Source: Chloroflexota bacterium
GTDB taxonomy: Bacteria; Chloroflexota; Anaerolineae; SpSt-600
Direction: 5' to 3'
Assembly: GCA_011041825.1 (NCBI GenBank)
Contig: DRAO01000308.1
Location: 1 to 21,976 of the forward strand
DNA length: 21,976 bases
The notes under the pieces are model-generated. The model had not been told where the DNA came from, made no database searches, and worked only from the letters and a program-made list of their open reading frames with translations. The position numbers and the translations under genes are program-made. Shown piece after piece: positions 6,738 through 13,950 of this stretch (the first letter of the stretch is position 1; every line of letters starts with the position of its first letter).

Positions 6738-7559
6738 CTAACCGCTCCTCTTGAGCTTACCCGCCTTCTTGGCATATCCCTCAGCTATACTGAAAATCCA
6801 GACCCCCAGAGGCAGAAAGACCACCCCCATTGTTCCTAACAAGATTACAATCCCCAGTAATTCGGCAGTCGAAGCCCCTTCTAGGAAAGCCCTCCGCATA
6901 CCGCAGAGCACGTACGTGGCCGGGGAGAACCTAGCTGCCATCTGAAGCCATTTTGGCAGCACCTCGACAGGATAGTAAATACCCGAGATGAGCAGGAATA
7001 CCGCCTGGATTACGTGCGTCATCTGAGCGCCTCTCTCCGGGAACAGCAGTGGCAGCACCGCTCCGATGATGCCCAATCCGATGAAGGATATGCTTCCAGC
7101 CAGGAGCACCAATCCTCCCCCCAGCAGGTTGGCTTTGCTCAAGTCAATGTGGAAGAAGATGCTCACTATCCCCAGGATTATGCCCGTGTGCAAGACCCCG
7201 TACAGCAAGGAGAACAGGCAAGTTCCCACCATATGCACGAAGCGGTGGACGGGGGCCATAAGGGTGTATTCGATGGTGCCCTCCCATCGCTCCCAAGCTA
7301 TCATCTCGCTCACGTTGTCGAAAACCAGGGCCAGGTAATGCCAAACCAGAGCTCCCGTAAGCAGATAGAGGATGAGGTAATCGGCTTGGAAAGGCTTGCC
7401 GCTTATCTTCTCCACCCCTGCCCCTATGTAGGTGATAGCCAAGGTGTTGGCGATGGAATAAGTCAACCACACTATCTCCCAGCCCCAGTAACGCTTAACC
7501 AGGTTAAAATTTCGTTCCACAAAGGCATAAGTTGCCCTCAGATGATATGGGATGCACAT
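6738..7559 (-). CDS. ABC-2 type exporter, permease subunit
   Basis: Integral membrane half of an export ABC transporter. 273 residues from the ATG at 7559, which has a GGGAGGG Shine-Dalgarno about 9 nt upstream. The longer reading frame from 7640 would translate through the 7582-7632 hairpin and is rejected. About six hydrophobic segments are visible, for example the stretches beginning WEIVWLTYSI, YLILYLLTGALVW, LFSLLYGVLH, GGGLVLLAGSISFIG, AVFLLISGIYYP and GIVILLGTMGVVFLP. The segment SGIYYPVEVLPKWLQMAARF followed by SPATY is characteristic of ABC-2 permeases of the drug, polysaccharide and antibiotic-export groups. The substrate cannot be told. Second gene of an operon with the ATPase at 7637-8452. 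Confidence 0.9.
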   Translation of the reverse strand: MCIPYHLRATYAFVERNFNLVKRYWGWEIVWLTYSIANTLAITYIGAGVEKISGKPFQADYLILYLLTGALVWHYLALVFDNVSEMIAWERWEGTIEYTLMAPVHRFVHMVGTCLFSLLYGVLHTGIILGIVSIFFHIDLSKANLLGGGLVLLAGSISFIGLGIIGAVLPLLFPERGAQMTHVIQAVFLLISGIYYPVEVLPKWLQMAARFSPATYVLCGMRRAFLEGASTAELLGIVILLGTMGVVFLPLGVWIFSIAEGYAKKAGKLKRSG

Positions 7560-7581
7560 AGGTCTTTCCCTCCCGGTAAAG

Positions 7582-7632
7582 AACTGGGTTTTCCCAGACG
7601 GTGGCAAAGCTGCCGTCTGAGAAAACCTGGTT
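7582..7632 (-). repeat. Intergenic imperfect palindrome, copy B (between the ABC genes)
   Basis: Positions 7582-7605 pair with 7609-7632 in a hairpin of about 24 bp with few mismatches or wobbles and an AAA loop. It fills the gap between the ATPase stop and the permease Shine-Dalgarno. It shares the 14-nt core GTGGCAAAGCTGCC with copy C (15365-15378) and the outer TTTTC...GAAAA arms with copy A. It could set the ratio of the two ABC subunits by blocking 3'-5' decay. Confidence 0.65.
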
Positions 7633-7636
7633 AAAG

Positions 7637-8452
7637 TCATCCTCCTTCTAACCGCTTACCCGTAAGGGCTATGAAGACGTCCTCCAGGGTCGGTTCAGAG
7701 CCATTGGAAGCTACCTTCTCCTTCAGCTTGCGGGGCTCATCCATAGCCACGATGCGCCCTTCATCCAGGATTGCCACCCGATCACAGAGGGTGTCGGCTT
7801 CAACCATATCGTGGGTGGTGAGCAAGATAGTGGTGCCGTGTTCCTCCCGTAGCTCCCTCACCAGAGCCTGAACCTCCCGCTTGGAGCGGGGGTCCAACCC
7901 TGTGGTAGGCTCATCCAAGAGCAGCAGGGAGGGGTTAGAGAGGAAGGCACGGGCCAGGGCTACCTTTTGCTGCATCCCCCGTGACATCTCCTCCATCGGC
8001 TGGAAGATTTCCTCCCGCTTTAATCCCAGGCGGATGAGGATTTCCAGGATTCGGGAGCGGGCTTCCCTGCCATTTAACCCGTATAGCCTGGCCCCATAGA
8101 GCAGGTTCTCCATAGGTGAGAGCTTTTTGAAGAAGGAGGCCTCTACCGAGACCCGGTTTATGAGCCATTTCACAATCTGCTCCTCTTTGCGTACATCATA
8201 GCCGAAAACCTTGATGGTGCCTGAATCCGGGATGAGGAGGGTGGCTATCAGGCGCACCAAGGTGGATTTGCCGGAACCGTTAGGCCCCAACACCCCGAAG
8301 ATTTCACCTGGCCTCACGGTGAAGGAGACGTTGTTAACGGCCAGCACCTCTCGTTTAGCTCCCCAGGGTAGCGGGCTACCGGTTATGAACTTCTTGGTGA
8401 CGTTGATGACCTCCAAAGCGTAGTGGCTTTTGGGCTTCACACGCACGCTCAT
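7637..8452 (-). CDS. ABC-2 type exporter, ATP-binding subunit
   Basis: Cytoplasmic ATPase that powers the permease encoded downstream. 271 residues from the ATG at 8452, which has GGAGG about 8 nt upstream; an in-frame start at 8605 would lie in the terminator region of the leader and is rejected. Motifs: Walker A GPNGSGKST (56-64), Walker B LLLLDEP (177-182), D-loop GLDPRS, switch His H214 in LTTHDM. Two departures from the usual pattern are visible. The signature reads MSRGMQQK (156-163) instead of LSGGMxQR, and the usual Q-loop glutamine is replaced within VSVEASFFKKLSPMENL (101-117). The overall pattern resembles daunorubicin/NodI-type export ATPases. Expression is probably controlled by the attenuator at 8522-8791. 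Confidence 0.93.
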   Translation of the reverse strand: MSVRVKPKSHYALEVINVTKKFITGSPLPWGAKREVLAVNNVSFTVRPGEIFGVLGPNGSGKSTLVRLIATLLIPDSGTIKVFGYDVRKEEQIVKWLINRVSVEASFFKKLSPMENLLYGARLYGLNGREARSRILEILIRLGLKREEIFQPMEEMSRGMQQKVALARAFLSNPSLLLLDEPTTGLDPRSKREVQALVRELREEHGTTILLTTHDMVEADTLCDRVAILDEGRIVAMDEPRKLKEKVASNGSEPTLEDVFIALTGKRLEGG

Positions 8453-8521: not shown

Positions 8522-8553
8522 AAAAAGGCCGTGGAGGAAGCCCACGGCCTTTT
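8522..8553 (-). terminator. Second tandem terminator (T2) in the ABC operon leader
   Basis: Read on the minus strand, GGCCGTGG (8549-8542) pairs with CCACGGCC (8534-8527) around a 7-nt loop, extended by AAAA/TTTT and ending in five T (8526-8522). It lies 69 nt before the ATPase start. The A- and T-runs make it potentially bidirectional. Confidence 0.8.
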
Positions 8554-8576
8554 GGATTTCAGGGATTTTGGGGATT

Positions 8577-8609
8577 AAAAAAGCCGTGGGCGCTGGTGCG
8601 CCCACGGCT
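8577..8609 (-). terminator. First tandem terminator (T1) in the ABC operon leader
   Basis: On the minus strand GCCGTGGGCGC (8608-8598) pairs perfectly with GCGCCCACGGC (8593-8583) around ACCA and is followed by six T (8582-8577). The T-run is only on the minus-strand side, so the terminator acts on leftward transcription, although no large gene lies upstream on that strand. Confidence 0.88.
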
Positions 8610-8621
8610 CAGGCTCGTTAC

Positions 8622-8705
8622 TTAACATAAATTAAACAGAAGTGGGCGCACCATCCCCCTGTGGAGAAGATAACCACCTTGATAAGTGAAAACAGGGAGA
8701 AACAT
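8622..8705 (-). CDS. Putative 27-residue leader peptide of the ABC exporter operon
   Basis: A short open frame starts with ATG at 8705, 5 nt after a strong AAGGAGG (8717-8711), and stops with TAA at 8624-8622, 13 nt before the T1 hairpin. The peptide begins MFLPVFTYQGGYLLHRG and is hydrophobic and aromatic-rich. Its 3' part, GGTGCGCCCAC (8652-8642), is exactly complementary to the 5' arm and loop of T1. Inside the frame, CTCCCTGT (8699-8692) can pair with ACAGGGGG (8662-8655). I propose it works in cis as a translation sensor, not as a protein. It could still be a chance frame, but Shine-Dalgarno, position and complementarity agree. Confidence 0.6.
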   Translation of the reverse strand: MFLPVFTYQGGYLLHRGMVRPLLFNLC

Positions 8706-8753
8706 AACGCCCTCCTTCCGAAATTTACCGATTGCGCAGCAAAGATAACCACC
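8667..8753 (-). repeat. 12-nt direct repeat in the attenuator leader
   Basis: GGTGGTTATCTT occurs at 8753-8742, just before the 3' arm of the 5' hairpin, and again at 8678-8667 inside the leader peptide frame, 75 nt apart. Its role is unknown; it may let two parts of the leader compete for the same partner. Confidence 0.5.
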
Positions 8754-8795
8754 ACGATGCTAAAACCGCTTGGCGCTCAATTGCTGCGCAAGCTA

Positions 8796-8824
8796 ATTAT
8801 ACACCGGGTGGAGGAGGTTGTCAA
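8796..8824 (-). promoter_or_regulatory. Consensus promoter of the ABC exporter leader
   Basis: On the minus strand TTGACA (8824-8819) and TATAAT (8801-8796) are separated by exactly 17 bp. Both hexamers match the sigma-70 consensus in full. Transcription should start near 8790, at the base of an 11-bp hairpin, giving a leader of about 340 nt before the ATPase start. Confidence 0.9.
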
Positions 8825-8872: not shown

Positions 8873-8901
8873 TTGACAATTAGCCAAATTTGTTATATGC
8901 T
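8873..8901 (+). promoter_or_regulatory. Probable promoter of the STAND/cyclase module
   Basis: TTGACA (8873-8878) is perfect. With a 17-bp spacer the -10 would be TATGCT (8896-8901), 4 of 6 matches. The predicted start near 8908 leaves a leader of about 135 nt containing the small hairpin AGCTCC-AAA-GGAGCT (8981-8995). The promoter is divergent from the ABC leader promoter, about 50 bp away. I see no gene between 8825 and 9043. Confidence 0.6.
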
Positions 8902-9043: not shown

Positions 9044-10348
9044 ATGGAAGCTAATGTCTATCCGTTTGCAGCCAGGAATTTTGTGGATGCCTATGCTAAC
9101 ACAGACTACAGGATGCCCCTCCACGATAAACAACTCGACCATTTCTACGTCTCTCGAGATGACGAAGGTTCCCGTCTGGAGCTGCTCAAGAAGGAGATAA
9201 GGTGGGGTGCTGAGAGGGGACTCGTCACCAAGTTCCTCCTCTCGGGGCATGTGGGCTGCGGTAAATCCACAGAACTCAACCGCCTGGTGAGAGAGATAGA
9301 GCAGGACCAGGAGACCAGAGATAACCTCTTCGTCGTCTCCTACTCCATAAACGAGATCCTGGACCTGCAAGGTGTGGATTACACCGACATCGCTTTCTCC
9401 GTGGTGGTGGCCATCTACAACAAACTCCAGGAATTTGACATCGCCTTCCCCGAAGAGGACATCCAGAAGATTTCAGACTGGATAAATAAGGAAGTGGAGA
9501 TTTTCACCCGCAAGACCCTGGAAGCCGACATAGAAGTTGGCACGGGGAGCGGGTTGGGGAAGCTCCTAAACCTCCTGACTTTGATAGGCATTAACGTGAA
9601 AGGCACGGGCCAGAAAGTCGAGGAAGCCCGCATCCGCATCAAGAAGAGGGCCCCTGACTTACGAGACCTCGTGAATAACATAATCAACCGGGTGAAGGAG
9701 ACGAGCGGCAAGAATGTGCTCATCGTCATAGACGATTTGGACAAACTGCCTCGGATGGAAGCCCTCCAGGTTTTCAAGGAAGAAGGCCCCTTCCTGGCGC
9801 TGCTCGATTGTATGGCCATCTACACCGCTCCCGTCTCATTGATGTATGAACTGGCCGATTCCCCGGCTCTGGAGCCTTATAAAGCATATCCGGTGCCGAT
9901 GTTCAAGGTTTACGAGAAGGAAGCCCGTAAGGTTAACGAGAGGGGTGTGAGCAAACTGGAGGAGATGATTTACCGACGGGTTTCGCCTGAGCTCTTCGAA
10001 GAAGGGACAGCCCGCCGTTTGGCCTTAGCCAGCGGGGGAGTGGCCCGCCACCTCATCAAAATGGTGCAGGATAGCTGCCTTTACTGCGCTGCCTTTAACA
10101 TCCCTCGCATAAACGATAACGTCGTGGATTGGGTTATAAATGAGTTCAAGAAGGATTTCTCCCGCCGTCTCGGACACAACGATTACGTCACTTTGAAGAA
10201 AATCCACGCCCAGAAGGAATGCCACGACATTGAAAATGCCTGGGAATACCTGCAATCCCTCTGTGTGCTGGAATATTCCAATGGCAATTACTGGTACGAT
10301 GTACACCCCATCGTCGAACTCCTCCTGCAAGAGCGAGGTATGCTGTAG
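9044..10348 (+). CDS. STAND/AAA-type P-loop ATPase
   Basis: 434 residues; no established gene name known to me. Walker A GHVGCGKST (68-76) follows the strand KFLLS, and Walker B VLIVIDD (225-231) is followed by LDKLP, a pattern of Orc1/Cdc6-like and STAND ATPases. The C-terminal third contains RRLALASGGVARHLIKMVQD (sensor/lid-like helices), and the last about 80 residues (YVTLKKIHAQ... to the end) look like a winged helix. The start has GAGAGGG (9031-9037) 6 nt upstream. It lies 53 nt before the NACHT-cyclase gene on the same strand, so the two probably form an operon. Plausible roles are an oligomerising sensor or a loader for its partner; no substrate can be named. Conflict-system membership is inferred from architecture. 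Confidence 0.8.
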   Translation: MEANVYPFAARNFVDAYANTDYRMPLHDKQLDHFYVSRDDEGSRLELLKKEIRWGAERGLVTKFLLSGHVGCGKSTELNRLVREIEQDQETRDNLFVVSYSINEILDLQGVDYTDIAFSVVVAIYNKLQEFDIAFPEEDIQKISDWINKEVEIFTRKTLEADIEVGTGSGLGKLLNLLTLIGINVKGTGQKVEEARIRIKKRAPDLRDLVNNIINRVKETSGKNVLIVIDDLDKLPRMEALQVFKEEGPFLALLDCMAIYTAPVSLMYELADSPALEPYKAYPVPMFKVYEKEARKVNERGVSKLEEMIYRRVSPELFEEGTARRLALASGGVARHLIKMVQDSCLYCAAFNIPRINDNVVDWVINEFKKDFSRRLGHNDYVTLKKIHAQKECHDIENAWEYLQSLCVLEYSNGNYWYDVHPIVELLLQERGML

Positions 10349-10401
10349 ATGCAAAGGGAACCCCTATGGTTCAGGGAGATTATGGTGGGAAGGAGGAAAC
10401 A

Positions 10402-13400
10402 GTGGCCGACATAAAAGTGGTACAGCCCCAATTACCCGTGCAGGAGAGGAAAGCGAGCGAGGAGTTAGATGATGAGATAGCCCGTCGCTATCCAGAGCAG
10501 GTCAAGCTCCTCCTCTCTATGCTCCGCCTTAGCAAATGGGGTGGCATCGCCACTGTGGAATGTGATGACCTGGAGTTACGTGAGCGCCTCTTCCGCTATT
10601 TTGAAAAGCAACTCCGCCAGATGAACATCTACCTCTACCCCGTGGAAGTCACCGAAGAAGACCTGAACCTCGTCCGAGTGCTTAGGAACCTCACCGACCG
10701 GGCAGGCTTCAAGGATTTGGAGCTCCTGGGCCGATACGATAACATCGTGTTCTTCGTCTACGGAATGGAAAAGTACAATGAGGAGCAACAGGAGAAATTC
10801 CTCCTCTGGCTCAACCTCTTCCGTGATGCCACTACCCTCATCCGCCAGCCCATCGTGCTCTGGGCTACCAGCGACTTCATCAACAAGATGGCGAAGGAGG
10901 CCCCTGACTTCTGGGCCTGGAAGGGGATGCTCTTCCGCTTTGAGAGCACCCCCTCGGGGGTTATCCGCCGGGTCAAACTGCCCCCCCTGAGACGCTACCT
11001 CCAGTCCATTATTGAAGACCCCGATTTCTCAGTGTGGAGCGAACTGTACGTGCCCCTTAGAGCCACCCCCCTTACCGGCCTTAAAGCCACCGATTGGAGG
11101 GAAGCCTTCCTGCAAGCCTTCCTCCCTAAGGCCAAGGAAAGGGGGGATGAGGCTAAGGATGTTATATCGTTGGTGAAGCAAAAGGAGCAAATCGTCATCC
11201 TGGGGGAGCCAGGCTCCGGCAAGACCACGGTCCTGAAATACCTGACCTGGAGCCTGGCCCGGGAGGCAGCCGACCGCTGGGATGAGGATAGCCGCAGAAA
11301 GCAGCTTGTGATACCCATATTTGTGCGGCTCCATCAGCTACGCCGTACCCGAGATGTGGAAGAAGTGATATGGTCACAATTCCAGTCCCACGGCGTCCAG
11401 GAGATAAAGAGCAAGGAGGAGTTGCGAAAAGTCCTCTCTATGGCTCCGGAGGTCTCTGATATAATTGAGGACCGCCGCCTGCGATTTATGATTATGCTCG
11501 ATGGATTGAACGAGATGCCTCCGGAGAACCGCCCTGTCTTGGAGGAATTCCTGTATCGCTATAAGGACCATTACCTCATAATCACAAGCCGCTTCTATGA
11601 AGAGGATTTGCTCTCCCGCTATCCCGTCGTGGTCCTCAACGAGCTCAGCGATGAGGATATAGAGCGATATGCCACAGCTTACCTGGGCGAGCACAGAGGC
11701 CAGAGGCTTGCCGAGCAAATCCGTCAAGACCCGCTGTTAAGGGAATTGAGCCGTAACCCCCTGGCTCTGTATATGTTTACCAAAGTGGCTACCGAGAAGG
11801 AAAGCCCCCTCCCTCACAACAAGGGCATCCTCTTCCAGCGCTTCACCGAGAACCTCCTCCGGCGCACGGAAACCGAGTGGTGGATGCTCTTCGGGCGTTC
11901 CAAGAGCAAGGTGGCGGCGGAGATAAGCCGGGAAGCCCTCGCTTACCTGGGCCTGACGATGCAGCGGGAGAAGGCCGAGGTCATAAACCGGGAAAGAGCC
12001 TACTGGCTGATAAGGGAAACAACCTTTGGGATGTCCATAAGGGCCTCGGCGCAGGACATTTTCGAGGGCCTCATCTACAGCGGACTGATACGCCTCTCCC
12101 GGGACAGGACAGCGGTGGGGTTTATGCACCACGCCGTGCGGGAGTACTTCGCTGCGGCGGGGCTCCTGAAGCGAGGGGAACCCATCTCCTGGTACCTCAC
12201 CACCCCCGAAGACCTGGCTCATTGGTCCGGAACCGCCGTCCTGCTCTTCGGCATTAGCTCCGAGAAATCCCTCGTCTACTGGGATGTCGTACAGGATGGC
12301 GAAAACTACAATCGCCTGTGGCTGGCTGCCCGCTGTTTGACCAACATCCTGTTCGACAATGAGGAAATGCGCAGGCTGAAGGCCGAGGTAGCTCAAACCC
12401 CGAAGGCAGAAGGCACCTTCCAGCTGGTATGGGGTATGGCTTGCGAGCTGATGGGCGACCTGGCTGAAGCGGCAGAGCATCTGGAGGAGGCTTTACGGCT
12501 GGATTCAAACCTCGTCTTCGCCTATTACGAACTCGGCTGGATATACAGACAACTGGGAGAGCGCCAGAAAGCTGTCGAAGCCCTGAAGGAAGCCATCAAC
12601 CTGGCTCCAAGCTTTATAGATGCCCACAACCAGCTTGGCATCACCTATTATGAGGAAGGTGAATACGCCAGGGCGTTAATGTGCTTCCAAAGGGCCTTGG
12701 CCCTCGAACCCTATAACCCCCACCATTACTACAATATAGGGATGGTGCACAAGGTGTTGGGGGAATACGACAGGGCAGCCGAGGCTTTCAGCAAGGCCCT
12801 TAATATTAAGCCCGATTACGAGGATGCGAGGGTGCAATTGGAAATAGTGCAGAAGGCTATGGCCACCCCTGCCTTGAAAGTCCTCGACCGGGTTTACTTC
12901 CTTCAGGGCTTATCCCTTGAGCAGCGCCTCCAGATTGCCGAAAGGCTGACCCCTGTGGAATATGAGGCCGGGGAATCCATCATAAAGCAGGGCGAGGAAG
13001 GCTCCACCTTCTACATCATAGAAGAAGGCGAAGCCGAAGTATATACCCAGGACGTGGAAGGCAACAAGATAACCCTTGCCATCCTGAGAGAAGGGGATTA
13101 CTTTGGGGAGATAGCCCTGCTGGAGGACACCCCTCTGCGAACCGCCTCGGTGGTGGCCCGCACCCACGTTAAACTCCTGAGCCTGAACAAAGCGGATTTC
13201 GATGAAGTAACCTCACGCTTCCCCTCCATCACCGAACAACTGGTGCAAACCAGGAACGAGCGCCTGCAAAGGGACATCAAGAGGGCCCTTGAGGAAAACG
13301 CCCGTTATTCACCCCTCTCCCAGCTTCTTGCCTCCCTCCCCGAGAGGGCTATGGAACTCAAGACCGAACAGACGCTTACCGTACTGATAGCGGACATCCA

Positions 13401-13950
13401 CTCCTCTACGGAATTGGCTGGGGTTCTGGGGCCTCGTTCGATGCTTCGATTCCTACGGGAGTTCTACCTGGAGATGATAAAGGCGGTGGGAAGGCAAGGC
13501 GCCGTCAAGCAATACACCGGTGACCAGGTTCTCGTCATCTTTGATGACCCCAAAGCGGCCATCAATTCAGCAATAGCGATGCAGCAGGCTTTCCAGTACC
13601 TGGCCGACCGATGGAAACAGAGGTACCCCGAAATCAAAGAGATGGGCATCGGCATCGGGATAAGCACCGGGCCTGTAGCTCTGGATACAACTCGCTTTGA
13701 GCACGCCATAGCGGGGGCTCCTGTAATCCTGGCGGCCCGCCTCTCAGCCAGGGGGAAGGTGACGGGGGAAATCTTTATGGATGAGGCCACTTACAACCTG
13801 GTGAAGGGGCACTTCCCTCTACATCCTGTCCCCCACCCTCTTATCATCAAAGGCTTCGACAAGCCCATCCGAACCTACAGGCTGACCTTGCCTTTCCCAA
13901 AGGATTGGGATGAGAAGAAGGCCCTCAGCTCGGCAACTTCTTTAACCTGA
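10402..13950 (+). CDS. NACHT-TPR-cNMP-binding-nucleotide cyclase fusion protein
   Basis: Multidomain signalling protein of 1182 residues from a GTG at 10402 with AAGGAGG (10390-10396) 5 nt upstream; an in-frame ATG at 10366 is the alternative. In order: residues 20-170, an alpha/beta domain without Walker A, ending in IVLWATSDF and APDFWAWKGMLFRF; NACHT ATPase about 260-520 with Walker A GEPGSGKTT (268-276) and Walker B LDGLNE (366-371); helical region to about 670; about four TPRs (674-820); cNMP-binding domain (830-955) with cassette FGEIALLEDTPLRTAS (901-916); class III cyclase (about 985-1170). The cyclase has metal Asp D998 and D1041, Lys K1036 in KQYTGD and R1113 in AARL, but Ile 1109 where the transition-state Asn is expected. 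No signal peptide or membrane segment is evident. The 3' end overlaps the convergent gene by 26 nt. Confidence 0.88.
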   Translation: MADIKVVQPQLPVQERKASEELDDEIARRYPEQVKLLLSMLRLSKWGGIATVECDDLELRERLFRYFEKQLRQMNIYLYPVEVTEEDLNLVRVLRNLTDRAGFKDLELLGRYDNIVFFVYGMEKYNEEQQEKFLLWLNLFRDATTLIRQPIVLWATSDFINKMAKEAPDFWAWKGMLFRFESTPSGVIRRVKLPPLRRYLQSIIEDPDFSVWSELYVPLRATPLTGLKATDWREAFLQAFLPKAKERGDEAKDVISLVKQKEQIVILGEPGSGKTTVLKYLTWSLAREAADRWDEDSRRKQLVIPIFVRLHQLRRTRDVEEVIWSQFQSHGVQEIKSKEELRKVLSMAPEVSDIIEDRRLRFMIMLDGLNEMPPENRPVLEEFLYRYKDHYLIITSRFYEEDLLSRYPVVVLNELSDEDIERYATAYLGEHRGQRLAEQIRQDPLLRELSRNPLALYMFTKVATEKESPLPHNKGILFQRFTENLLRRTETEWWMLFGRSKSKVAAEISREALAYLGLTMQREKAEVINRERAYWLIRETTFGMSIRASAQDIFEGLIYSGLIRLSRDRTAVGFMHHAVREYFAAAGLLKRGEPISWYLTTPEDLAHWSGTAVLLFGISSEKSLVYWDVVQDGENYNRLWLAARCLTNILFDNEEMRRLKAEVAQTPKAEGTFQLVWGMACELMGDLAEAAEHLEEALRLDSNLVFAYYELGWIYRQLGERQKAVEALKEAINLAPSFIDAHNQLGITYYEEGEYARALMCFQRALALEPYNPHHYYNIGMVHKVLGEYDRAAEAFSKALNIKPDYEDARVQLEIVQKAMATPALKVLDRVYFLQGLSLEQRLQIAERLTPVEYEAGESIIKQGEEGSTFYIIEEGEAEVYTQDVEGNKITLAILREGDYFGEIALLEDTPLRTASVVARTHVKLLSLNKADFDEVTSRFPSITEQLVQTRNERLQRDIKRALEENARYSPLSQLLASLPERAMELKTEQTLTVLIADIHSSTELAGVLGPRSMLRFLREFYLEMIKAVGRQGAVKQYTGDQVLVIFDDPKAAINSAIAMQQAFQYLADRWKQRYPEIKEMGIGIGISTGPVALDTTRFEHAIAGAPVILAARLSARGKVTGEIFMDEATYNLVKGHFPLHPVPHPLIIKGFDKPIRTYRLTLPFPKDWDEKKALSSATSLT

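Follow-up and report, generated by a model that had tools for sequence, protein, structure and literature searches.

A candidate ribosome-mediated attenuator with two terminators in series ahead of an ABC exporter and other genes in Chloroflexota

Two intrinsic terminators that lie between a promoter and its gene raise the question of how the gene is ever transcribed. This arrangement is found ahead of an ABC exporter in a stretch of 21,976 nucleotides from a Chloroflexota bacterium (contig DRAO01000308.1), hereafter called the window. A preliminary description of the window listed a promoter, a short frame led by a Shine-Dalgarno sequence, two terminators and an ATPase gene in this order, and all of them could be confirmed on the minus strand. 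The promoter (TTGACA-17-TATAAT, 8796..8824) matches the consensus at 12 of 12 positions. It is followed by a leader ORF of 27 codons plus stop (8622..8705; ATG at 8705, stop codon ending at 8622; MFLPVFTYQGGYLLHRGMVRPLLFNLC) with the Shine-Dalgarno sequence AAGGAGG (8717-8711). Terminator T1 (8582..8609) consists of arm 2 (8609-8598), a loop (8597-8594) and arm 3 (8593-8582), and has a stability of -27 kcal/mol. Terminator T2 (8523..8553) consists of arm 4 (8553-8541), a loop (8540-8536) and arm 5 (8535-8523), and has a stability of -20 kcal/mol. Both are followed by a T tract. After a gap of 70 nt, T2 is succeeded by the gene for a DrrA-like ABC ATPase (7637..8452; PF00005; TIGR01188 with 248.5 bits, below the cut-off of 312.45) and by that for an ABC-2 type permease (6738..7640; PF01061), which overlaps the stop codon of the ATPase gene. 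The ATPase frame is open further upstream (8605-8452, minus strand), through T2 and most of T1, and the list of ORFs contains a GTG at 8605 in frame with it. The ATG at 8452, which is preceded by a Shine-Dalgarno sequence, is the likelier start, and automatic annotation may call the start of the ATPase gene too early. In the window, the interval from T2 to the ATPase gene yielded no promoter-like site on the minus strand. On the plus strand, a promoter-like site (8873-8901, 10/12) is directed at the divergent gene starting at 9044.

The RNA between the promoter and the exporter genes contains sequences that could pair with more than one partner. Segment 1 (8642..8652), the putative antiterminator and protector strand, is located within the 3' part of the leader ORF. 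The proposed complementarities of 8652-8642 to 8605-8595 and of 8591-8583 to 8548-8540 are exact over 11 bp (12 bp in the longest version) and 9 bp, respectively. The partner of segment 1 comprises the inner part of arm 2 and three loop bases of T1, and a match of 11 bp to the 5' arm and loop of T1 arose in only 5 of 20000 dinucleotide-shuffled leaders. Moreover, segment 0, the ribosome-binding site of the leader ORF (8708..8719), is predicted from the MFE fold and pairing sums to pair with segment 1 at about 8648-8639. The RNA from 8789, the inferred transcript start, to 8522 has a folding z of -6.96, and none of 200 shuffles folded equally well. The window RNA may be written as a chain of helices, 0:1 (protector), 1:2 (antiterminator), 2:3 (T1), 3:4 and 4:5 (T2).

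For a comparative analysis, ATPase orthologs were gathered from genomes of the class to which the window belongs, as well as from a GTDB contig set, whose labels mainly name Anaerolineae, orders of these or Chloroflexi; some Bipolaricaulota and Ktedonobacteria are also represented. Once duplicates and matches below 55% identity had been dropped, 124 ortholog loci were left; in 6 of them, the available upstream sequence is shorter than 400 nt. In 65 loci, the ATPase gene is preceded by a strict pair of strong terminators at a short distance from each other, and all of these loci except L129, L159 and L162 were used (62 loci). The leader start was set by hand for L122, L123 and L059, and L075 kept its automatic start. 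The swap test and the comparison of 3:4 with 2:5 in the 62 loci preceded these settings; the counts of Arg-X-Arg, other-gene leaders, run lengths, representatives and ORF presence came after them. Kinship is ignored in the counts of Arg codons, other-gene leaders, run lengths, promoters, T2 and ORFs, and a thinned set contains 34 representatives that share under 70% identity with one another when aligned leniently. In 56 of the 62 orthologs, the 100 nt preceding the leader start contain a promoter with at least 9 of 12 consensus matches, as compared to 16 of 310 shuffles. An ATG-initiated ORF led by a Shine-Dalgarno sequence and ending near segment 1 was detected in 97 of 120 loci versus 17 of 360 shuffles, and T1 is paired in 95.7% of cells across the 62 relatives, with changes on both sides in 6 of 9 pairs. 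The leader peptides of the 62 orthologs differ widely. Judged by sequence comparison, the relatives keep the anatomy of promoter, leader ORF and two terminators. The preliminary description had made its reading depend on relatives retaining the leader frame and the complementarity of segment 1, and both are kept.

The element is not confined to the exporter. A covariance model spanning segment 1 to T1 (R1) was built from the 62 sequences, including that of the window; its E-values are rough because the models were only shortly calibrated. In the window's genome, R1 matches one copy (E 1.2e-11); further matches have E-values of 0.12 and 0.15, the latter on the opposite strand of T2, and no second leader copy was found by DNA comparison or by R1 in this assembly, which is 84.69% complete. 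Matches with E ≤0.001 occur in 222 of 396 class genomes, the sources of the training sequences included, and an ABC ortholog at E ≤1e-90 in only 64 of the 396. In the phylum, matches were obtained in 40/301 at E ≤1e-4, with 17 outside the class, and many are weak. Among the 124 ortholog loci, 86 have a full-length match (the 62 used for training and 24 of the other 62), and 38 are without one, some through contig ends. None of the 8 ortholog loci labelled Bipolaricaulota/Acetothermia and the 3 labelled Ktedonobacteria/Ktedonobacterales gave an R1 match.

Furthermore, 61 copies away from the listed ABC-2 loci were examined, which were taken from the better-scoring matches in class genomes. As the downstream ORF, the longest same-strand ORF with a start no more than 900 nt away was chosen; since 17 of the 61 start more than 300 nt after T1, some of these starts will be internal and some targets are uncertain. 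The ORFs were assigned by Pfam or NCBIfam scans, and similarity clusters filled two assignments. GNAT acetyltransferases are the largest group (26 of 61; 25 by match, L201 by similarity), followed by ABC exporters with an ABC_membrane domain (13), HAD hydrolases (4; 3 by match, the fragment L178 by similarity) and ABC-F proteins (3; L181, L192 and L206, all incomplete). For L192 and L181, the best model is the ribosomal-protection model NF000355, with scores below its cut-off, and for L206 the EttA models score slightly better. DrrA-like ATPases (L187, L203), ABC-2 permeases (L172, L215) and MFS proteins (L214, L225) were found twice each and a RIO-domain protein once (L186); 8 ORFs had no match. 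L203, L172 and L215 represent the window's own exporter type (ATPase 64.5%, permeases 65 and 70% identical). L178 and L205 are without T1 by the criterion used, which leaves 59 loci. L181, L192 and L206 were omitted from the leader counts because their leader starts are unclear, leaving 56 leaders, of which 46 have both a leader and T2. The leaders of these three ABC-F loci have a weak Shine-Dalgarno sequence, which sets them apart from most family members. A promoter lies ahead of 47 of 55 other-gene leaders (18 of 275 shuffles). A second terminator follows T1 in 48 of the 59 further loci, as compared to 14 of 295 shuffles and 32 of 851 other windows; as T2 lies outside the R1 model, this is the best independent check that the matches are real. 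By these matches, the element family seems to precede several kinds of genes, many of which belong to types familiar from drug resistance. The preliminary description had presented an exporter attenuator, which fits the genes downstream in the window but is too narrow for a multi-gene family.

The pairing chain was evaluated by a swap test, in which the segment duplexes of each locus were compared with those formed with partners from other loci in 5000 permutations. For the 62 loci, 0:1, 1:2, 2:3, 3:4 and 4:5 were better than all 5000 permutations, and 1891 permutations were as good for the control pairing 0:3. The same preference for the chain was observed for the 34 representatives (0:3, 1519 of 5000) and for the 46 other-gene leaders, in which 0:5 (375 of 5000) was null and 0:3 slightly in excess (27 of 5000). 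A direct pairing of segment 1 with T2 (1:4), which also served as a control, was rejected, as it showed no self preference in the 62 loci, the representatives and the other-gene leaders (4410, 2720 and 839 of 5000 swaps as good). The comparison shows that the chain is conserved. The preliminary description had proposed 1:2, 2:3, 3:4 and 4:5, all of which are kept against sequence change in the 62 loci, and it had missed 0:1. The helices 1:2 and 2:3 share arm 2 and are hence mutually exclusive, and both are maintained. In the E. coli trp attenuator, a protector (1:2), an antiterminator (2:3) and a single terminator (3:4) are combined with Trp codons that sense tryptophan. These three helices correspond to 0:1, 1:2 and 2:3 of the present element, which would thus be a trp-like set of protector, antiterminator and terminator with a domino to a second terminator.

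The two upstream helices were also assessed individually. The pairing 0:1 is formed with quite different sequences in L153, L146, L122 and L124, and Watson-Crick runs of at least 8 are present in 24 of 118 loci (6.2 expected). As the MAFFT alignment A2, which extends from the Shine-Dalgarno sequence on, is too ragged at the latter, the evidence for 0:1 consists of the duplex and run-length tests. For 1:2, runs of at least 8 occur in 13 of 118 loci (5.4 expected) when the short stretch around segment 1 is used. The mean run in the 62 ABC-2 loci, a weak test, is lower in self (5.40) than in the best permutation (5.48). In fixed columns, 87.7% of the 1:2 cells are paired versus 28-58% when the columns are slid, and 5 of 8 pairs have changes on both sides; column shuffles reached the observed paired percentage in 7, the pairs in 15 and the double-changed cells in 89 of 500 cases. 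A hexamer contingency test for 0:1 and 1:2 is poor because the core hardly varies (TGCGCC in 78 of 118). With TGCGTC, the hexamer GACGCA in segment 0 is clearly shifted (5 of 15 vs 5 of 103), and GGCGCA, the complement of the core, is not commoner in T1 in loci with a TGCGCC core (18 of 78 vs 13 of 40 others).

The coupling of the two terminators depends on 3:4, and T1 and T2 of the window share the stem GCCGTGGGC. If T2 resembled T1 by duplication alone, 3:4 and its mirror 2:5 would be about equally strong. This caveat had already been raised for the window and turned out to be justified in part. On the one hand, 3:4 is stronger than 2:5 in 48 of the 62 loci (equal in 1, weaker in 13), in 26 of the 34 representatives and in 34 of the 46 other-gene leaders, so that 3:4 withstands this objection. 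On the other hand, 2:5, which has no role in the proposed switch, is also better in self than all 5000 swaps in all three sets, suggesting that shared ancestry or concerted change of the stems contributes. R1 also matches T2 on the same strand in L198 (396-437), L206 (377-411) and L189 (1633-1673), which shows the close likeness of T2 to T1. The signal of 2:5 and the shared stem would suit an attenuator acting at T1 only, with T2 as a leaky back-up from hairpin duplication and an idle 3:4, and so would L009 and L141, in which 3:4 is weak (-10 and -12 kcal/mol). This reading is at odds with the excess of 3:4 over 2:5, and an unrelieved T2 would shut the gene, for which no minus-strand promoter-like site was found beyond T2 in the window. 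We therefore consider it unlikely. In the preferred reading of coupled terminators, the family would provide a comparative case in which one event opens two terminators via the release of a strand.

The location of segment 1 relative to the leader ORF suggests how the switch may be operated. Segment 1, anchored by a scored consensus with the core CGNAGTGCGCC, is a conserved element in alignment A3. In the 62 leaders, the core is read in frame 2 (46 leaders), frame 0 (13) or frame 1 (3, including that of the window), which argues that segment 1 is kept as RNA and the surrounding ORF as an ORF. The other-gene leaders have one frame for segment 1 in 51 of 56 cases, and one frame is kept though the distance from the start codon to segment 1 spans 41-92 nt. 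The core begins before the stop codon in 59 of 62 leaders, and the ORF stops right at the core in L068, L076 and L127 (frame 0). Thus, the antiterminator strand lies within or next to the leader ORF, as is characteristic of a ribosome-mediated attenuator. Promoter, leader ORF and terminator all precede the structural gene, and the Shine-Dalgarno sequence, the frame and the conservation of Arg codons suggest that the ORF is translated. In 29 of 62 orthologs and in 33 of 56 other-gene leaders, the stop codon ends 19 nt after the start of the core, which would place segment 1 under a ribosome at the stop codon. The window departs from this spacing with 29 nt, and a ribosome of the assumed footprint would barely touch segment 1 at its stop codon.

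The leader peptides themselves point to a signal for part of the family. Arg-X-Arg is a macrolide/ketolide arrest motif of leader peptides (PMC8298421). It occurs before segment 1 in 36 of the 62 ABC-2 leaders (within-peptide shuffles: mean 8.0, s.d. 2.4, maximum 19), in 19 of the 34 representatives and in 14 of the 56 other-gene leaders (shuffles 4.9, maximum 12), which amounts to 50 of 118 leaders altogether. L079, for instance, has such a leader (MSGNSLHLFTMRLR...), and L083 of Anaerolinea thermolimosa has a leader without the motif. The distance from the second Arg codon to the core is 33-42 nt in 33 of the 36 leaders and exactly 39 nt in 19. The second Arg is codon 10-18 in 31 of the 36, so that the constant distance is the one to segment 1. 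Counted from segment 1, Arg peaks at codons -16 and -14 (26 of 61 and 35 of 62 in the ABC-2 set; 13 of 53 and 20 of 55 in the other-gene set); shoulders are visible at -15 and -13, and Arg is seldom found from -11 to -5. The peak at -2 (40 of 62 and 44 of 56) arises from the CGN within segment 1. Different synonymous codons are used for Arg (CGC, CGA, CGT, CGG, AGG); as nearly all of them begin with CG, some share of the conservation may be at the RNA level. Arg-X-Arg is absent from the window leader, from 26 of the 62 ABC-2 leaders and from 42 of the 56 other-gene leaders, and a macrolide-type signal is therefore proposed for part of the family only. PP and P[PG] are not enriched in the leaders. 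In an exploratory count, aromatic-X-X-Arg/Lys was enriched in the ABC-2 set (23 vs 11.1) and not in the other-gene set (12 vs 8.8; 278 of 2000 shuffles). The position of an arrest peptide, with Arg-X-Arg about 13 codons before segment 1, would thus be tied to an RNA switch with comparative support, which makes ribosome position and RNA refolding quantitatively testable.

Arg codons at two fixed positions could also mean that the leader responds to arginine starvation or slow translation and not to a drug, with ribosomes stalling when charged Arg-tRNA is short. No known arrest motif precedes segment 1 in the window leader, for which slow translation would be the only possible signal. However, the two Arg codons are one residue apart and do not form a run, and no family of arginine synthesis or transport is found among the 61 further downstream ORFs, of which 8 are without a match. 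In our opinion, this alternative to a drug signal is distinctly improbable. We regard it as very improbable that a riboswitch or protein-binding attenuator is present and that the short ORF is incidental. Switching between terminator and antiterminator does not need a ribosome per se, and the strongly conserved segment 1 might be a binding site. Nevertheless, the window and 16 related loci had no match in Rfam 15 at the gathering threshold, including Trp_leader and Chloroflexi-1 (RF01698), which is listed in PMC2864571. Sub-threshold matches up to E 1 were not credible (FsrA, 22.9 of 80 bits; Trp_leader, 17.8 of 41 bits). An incidental ORF is also hard to reconcile with its frequency near segment 1 compared with shuffles, with the single frame over varying distances and with the Arg positions conserved despite synonymous codons. 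Ordinary tandem terminators that shield the exporter from upstream transcription are scarcely credible: gene ends often carry two strong terminators in tandem, but here they sit after a perfect promoter and before its gene, the upstream neighbour is divergent (9044, plus strand), and the arrangement with the leader ORF is kept in relatives.

The arrangement and its conservation are best explained by a ribosome-mediated transcription attenuator with two terminators in series, an interpretation that we hold to be highly probable; the switch is probably thrown by a ribosome stalled on the leader gene. Segment 1 has two alternative partners, the ribosome-binding site of the leader (0:1) and the 5' arm of T1 together with its loop (1:2). 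Arm 3 can pair with arm 2 (T1) or with arm 4 (3:4), and arm 4 otherwise with arm 5 (T2). According to the model, 0:1 would form first without a ribosome, and then both terminators. During unhindered translation, the ribosome would move over segment 1 towards the nearby stop codon, and both terminators would likewise form. If the ribosome stalls early, segment 0 would be covered by the stalled or a queued ribosome and segment 1 would be free. The latter could capture arm 2 before arm 3 is made, causing T1 to fail, and arm 3, left single, could capture arm 4, so that T2 would fail as well and the exporter genes would be transcribed. In the 50 of 118 leaders with Arg-X-Arg, the nascent peptide may set the stall about 13 codons before segment 1 in response to a signal of the macrolide/ketolide type. 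The window leader may answer another translation inhibitor or slow translation in general.

Folding with masking had been suggested in the preliminary description as a check. In folds with masked ribosome footprints, the helix 1:2 prevails only as long as arm 3 is missing, and even without a ribosome it outcompetes 0:1 at that stage (7.3 vs 2.6 expected pairs). Once transcribed, T1 and T2 win at equilibrium in every simulated ribosome state, and equilibrium folding with masked footprints did not reproduce antitermination. Since 1:2 loses at equilibrium, the switch would have to be kinetic and set during transcription. Within T1, the 1:2 duplex occupies the inner arm along with some of the loop and leaves only the foot, which is transcribed last, as a toehold; this late toehold may keep 1:2 protected long enough.

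Several known attenuators share individual features with the element. The ermK attenuator controls an rRNA methylase in Firmicutes, and its leader peptide is presumably of the R-X-R type. The window has neither an R-X-R leader nor an rRNA methylase downstream, where the ABC ATPase and permease genes are located instead, and the likeness of the element to ermK is one of description. It consists in two adjacent terminators under one leader peptide: the ermK leader peptide of Bacillus licheniformis is described as controlling two adjacent Rho-independent terminators (PMC4335068). This precedent weakens the earlier notion that coupling two terminators through one upstream switch is unusual. In ErmDL, an R-X-R arrest in the leader uORF likewise triggers refolding of the mRNA; its Arg-Leu-Arg occupies residues 6-8, and it works on the ErmD methylase, which sets it apart (PMC8298421). 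The bmrB-bmrCD system of B. subtilis, which is induced by ribosome-targeted antibiotics, has a leader ORF, a terminator, a predicted antiterminator and anti-antiterminator and an ABC exporter for drugs (PMC4191407). It differs in having one terminator, which lies within the bmrB coding region, and the part of the text available mentions no R-X-R geometry or multi-gene family (PMC4191407).

Efflux genes of S. pneumoniae, mef(E)/mel, are also preceded by a leader peptide and macrolide-inducible attenuation; here, a second terminator was considered and rejected by the authors (PMC4335068). The ABC-leaders of Naville and Gautheret (2010) combine premature terminators and antiterminators before ABC transporter genes, and some rimP-leaders have a second tandem terminator (PMC2965389). 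In contrast to the present element, no two-terminator chain with a leader peptide is described for exporters in the accessible main text, in which the string 'Chloroflex' is absent (PMC2965389). The toiL uORF of E. coli is similar in that a single uORF responds to multiple classes of antibiotics directed at the ribosome through stalling at different sites, but it acts through translation and Rho-dependent termination instead of two intrinsic terminators (PMC12121999).

No description of the two-terminator leader family was found in the titles and abstract openings of the papers listed on leaders, attenuation and structured RNAs of Chloroflexi, Chloroflexota or Anaerolineae, which covered mostly papers outside subscription, nor in those of the papers listed on tandem-terminator leaders and attenuated resistance genes. 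The elements would form a widespread and apparently undescribed family of ribosome-mediated attenuators. If this holds true, the phylum, for which the literature searched contains no such switch, would have a large family of sensors for translation inhibitors, and the family would point to genes that environmental bacteria use against ribosome-targeting drugs. A more far-reaching idea, to which we lean less than to its opposite, is that one RNA chassis of promoter, SD-pairing segment 1 and domino-coupled terminators stands ahead of many unrelated resistance-type genes throughout the Chloroflexota, with leader peptides exchanged or retuned so that every copy senses another ribosome-targeting drug, which would constitute a class-wide and undescribed antibiotic-sensing regulon made of exchangeable arrest peptides.

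Two further features of the locus are worth mentioning. At the extreme 5' end of the leader transcript, the minus strand encodes a strong hairpin (8735-8789; GCGCAGCAA...TTGCTGCGC), possibly an RNA stabiliser. On the plus strand, two adjoining genes (9044-13950) encode a P-loop ATPase with a KAP_NTPase match and a protein of 1194 aa with NACHT, TPR, cyclic-nucleotide-binding and adenylate/guanylate cyclase domains, an unusual pair that looks signalling- or defence-like.
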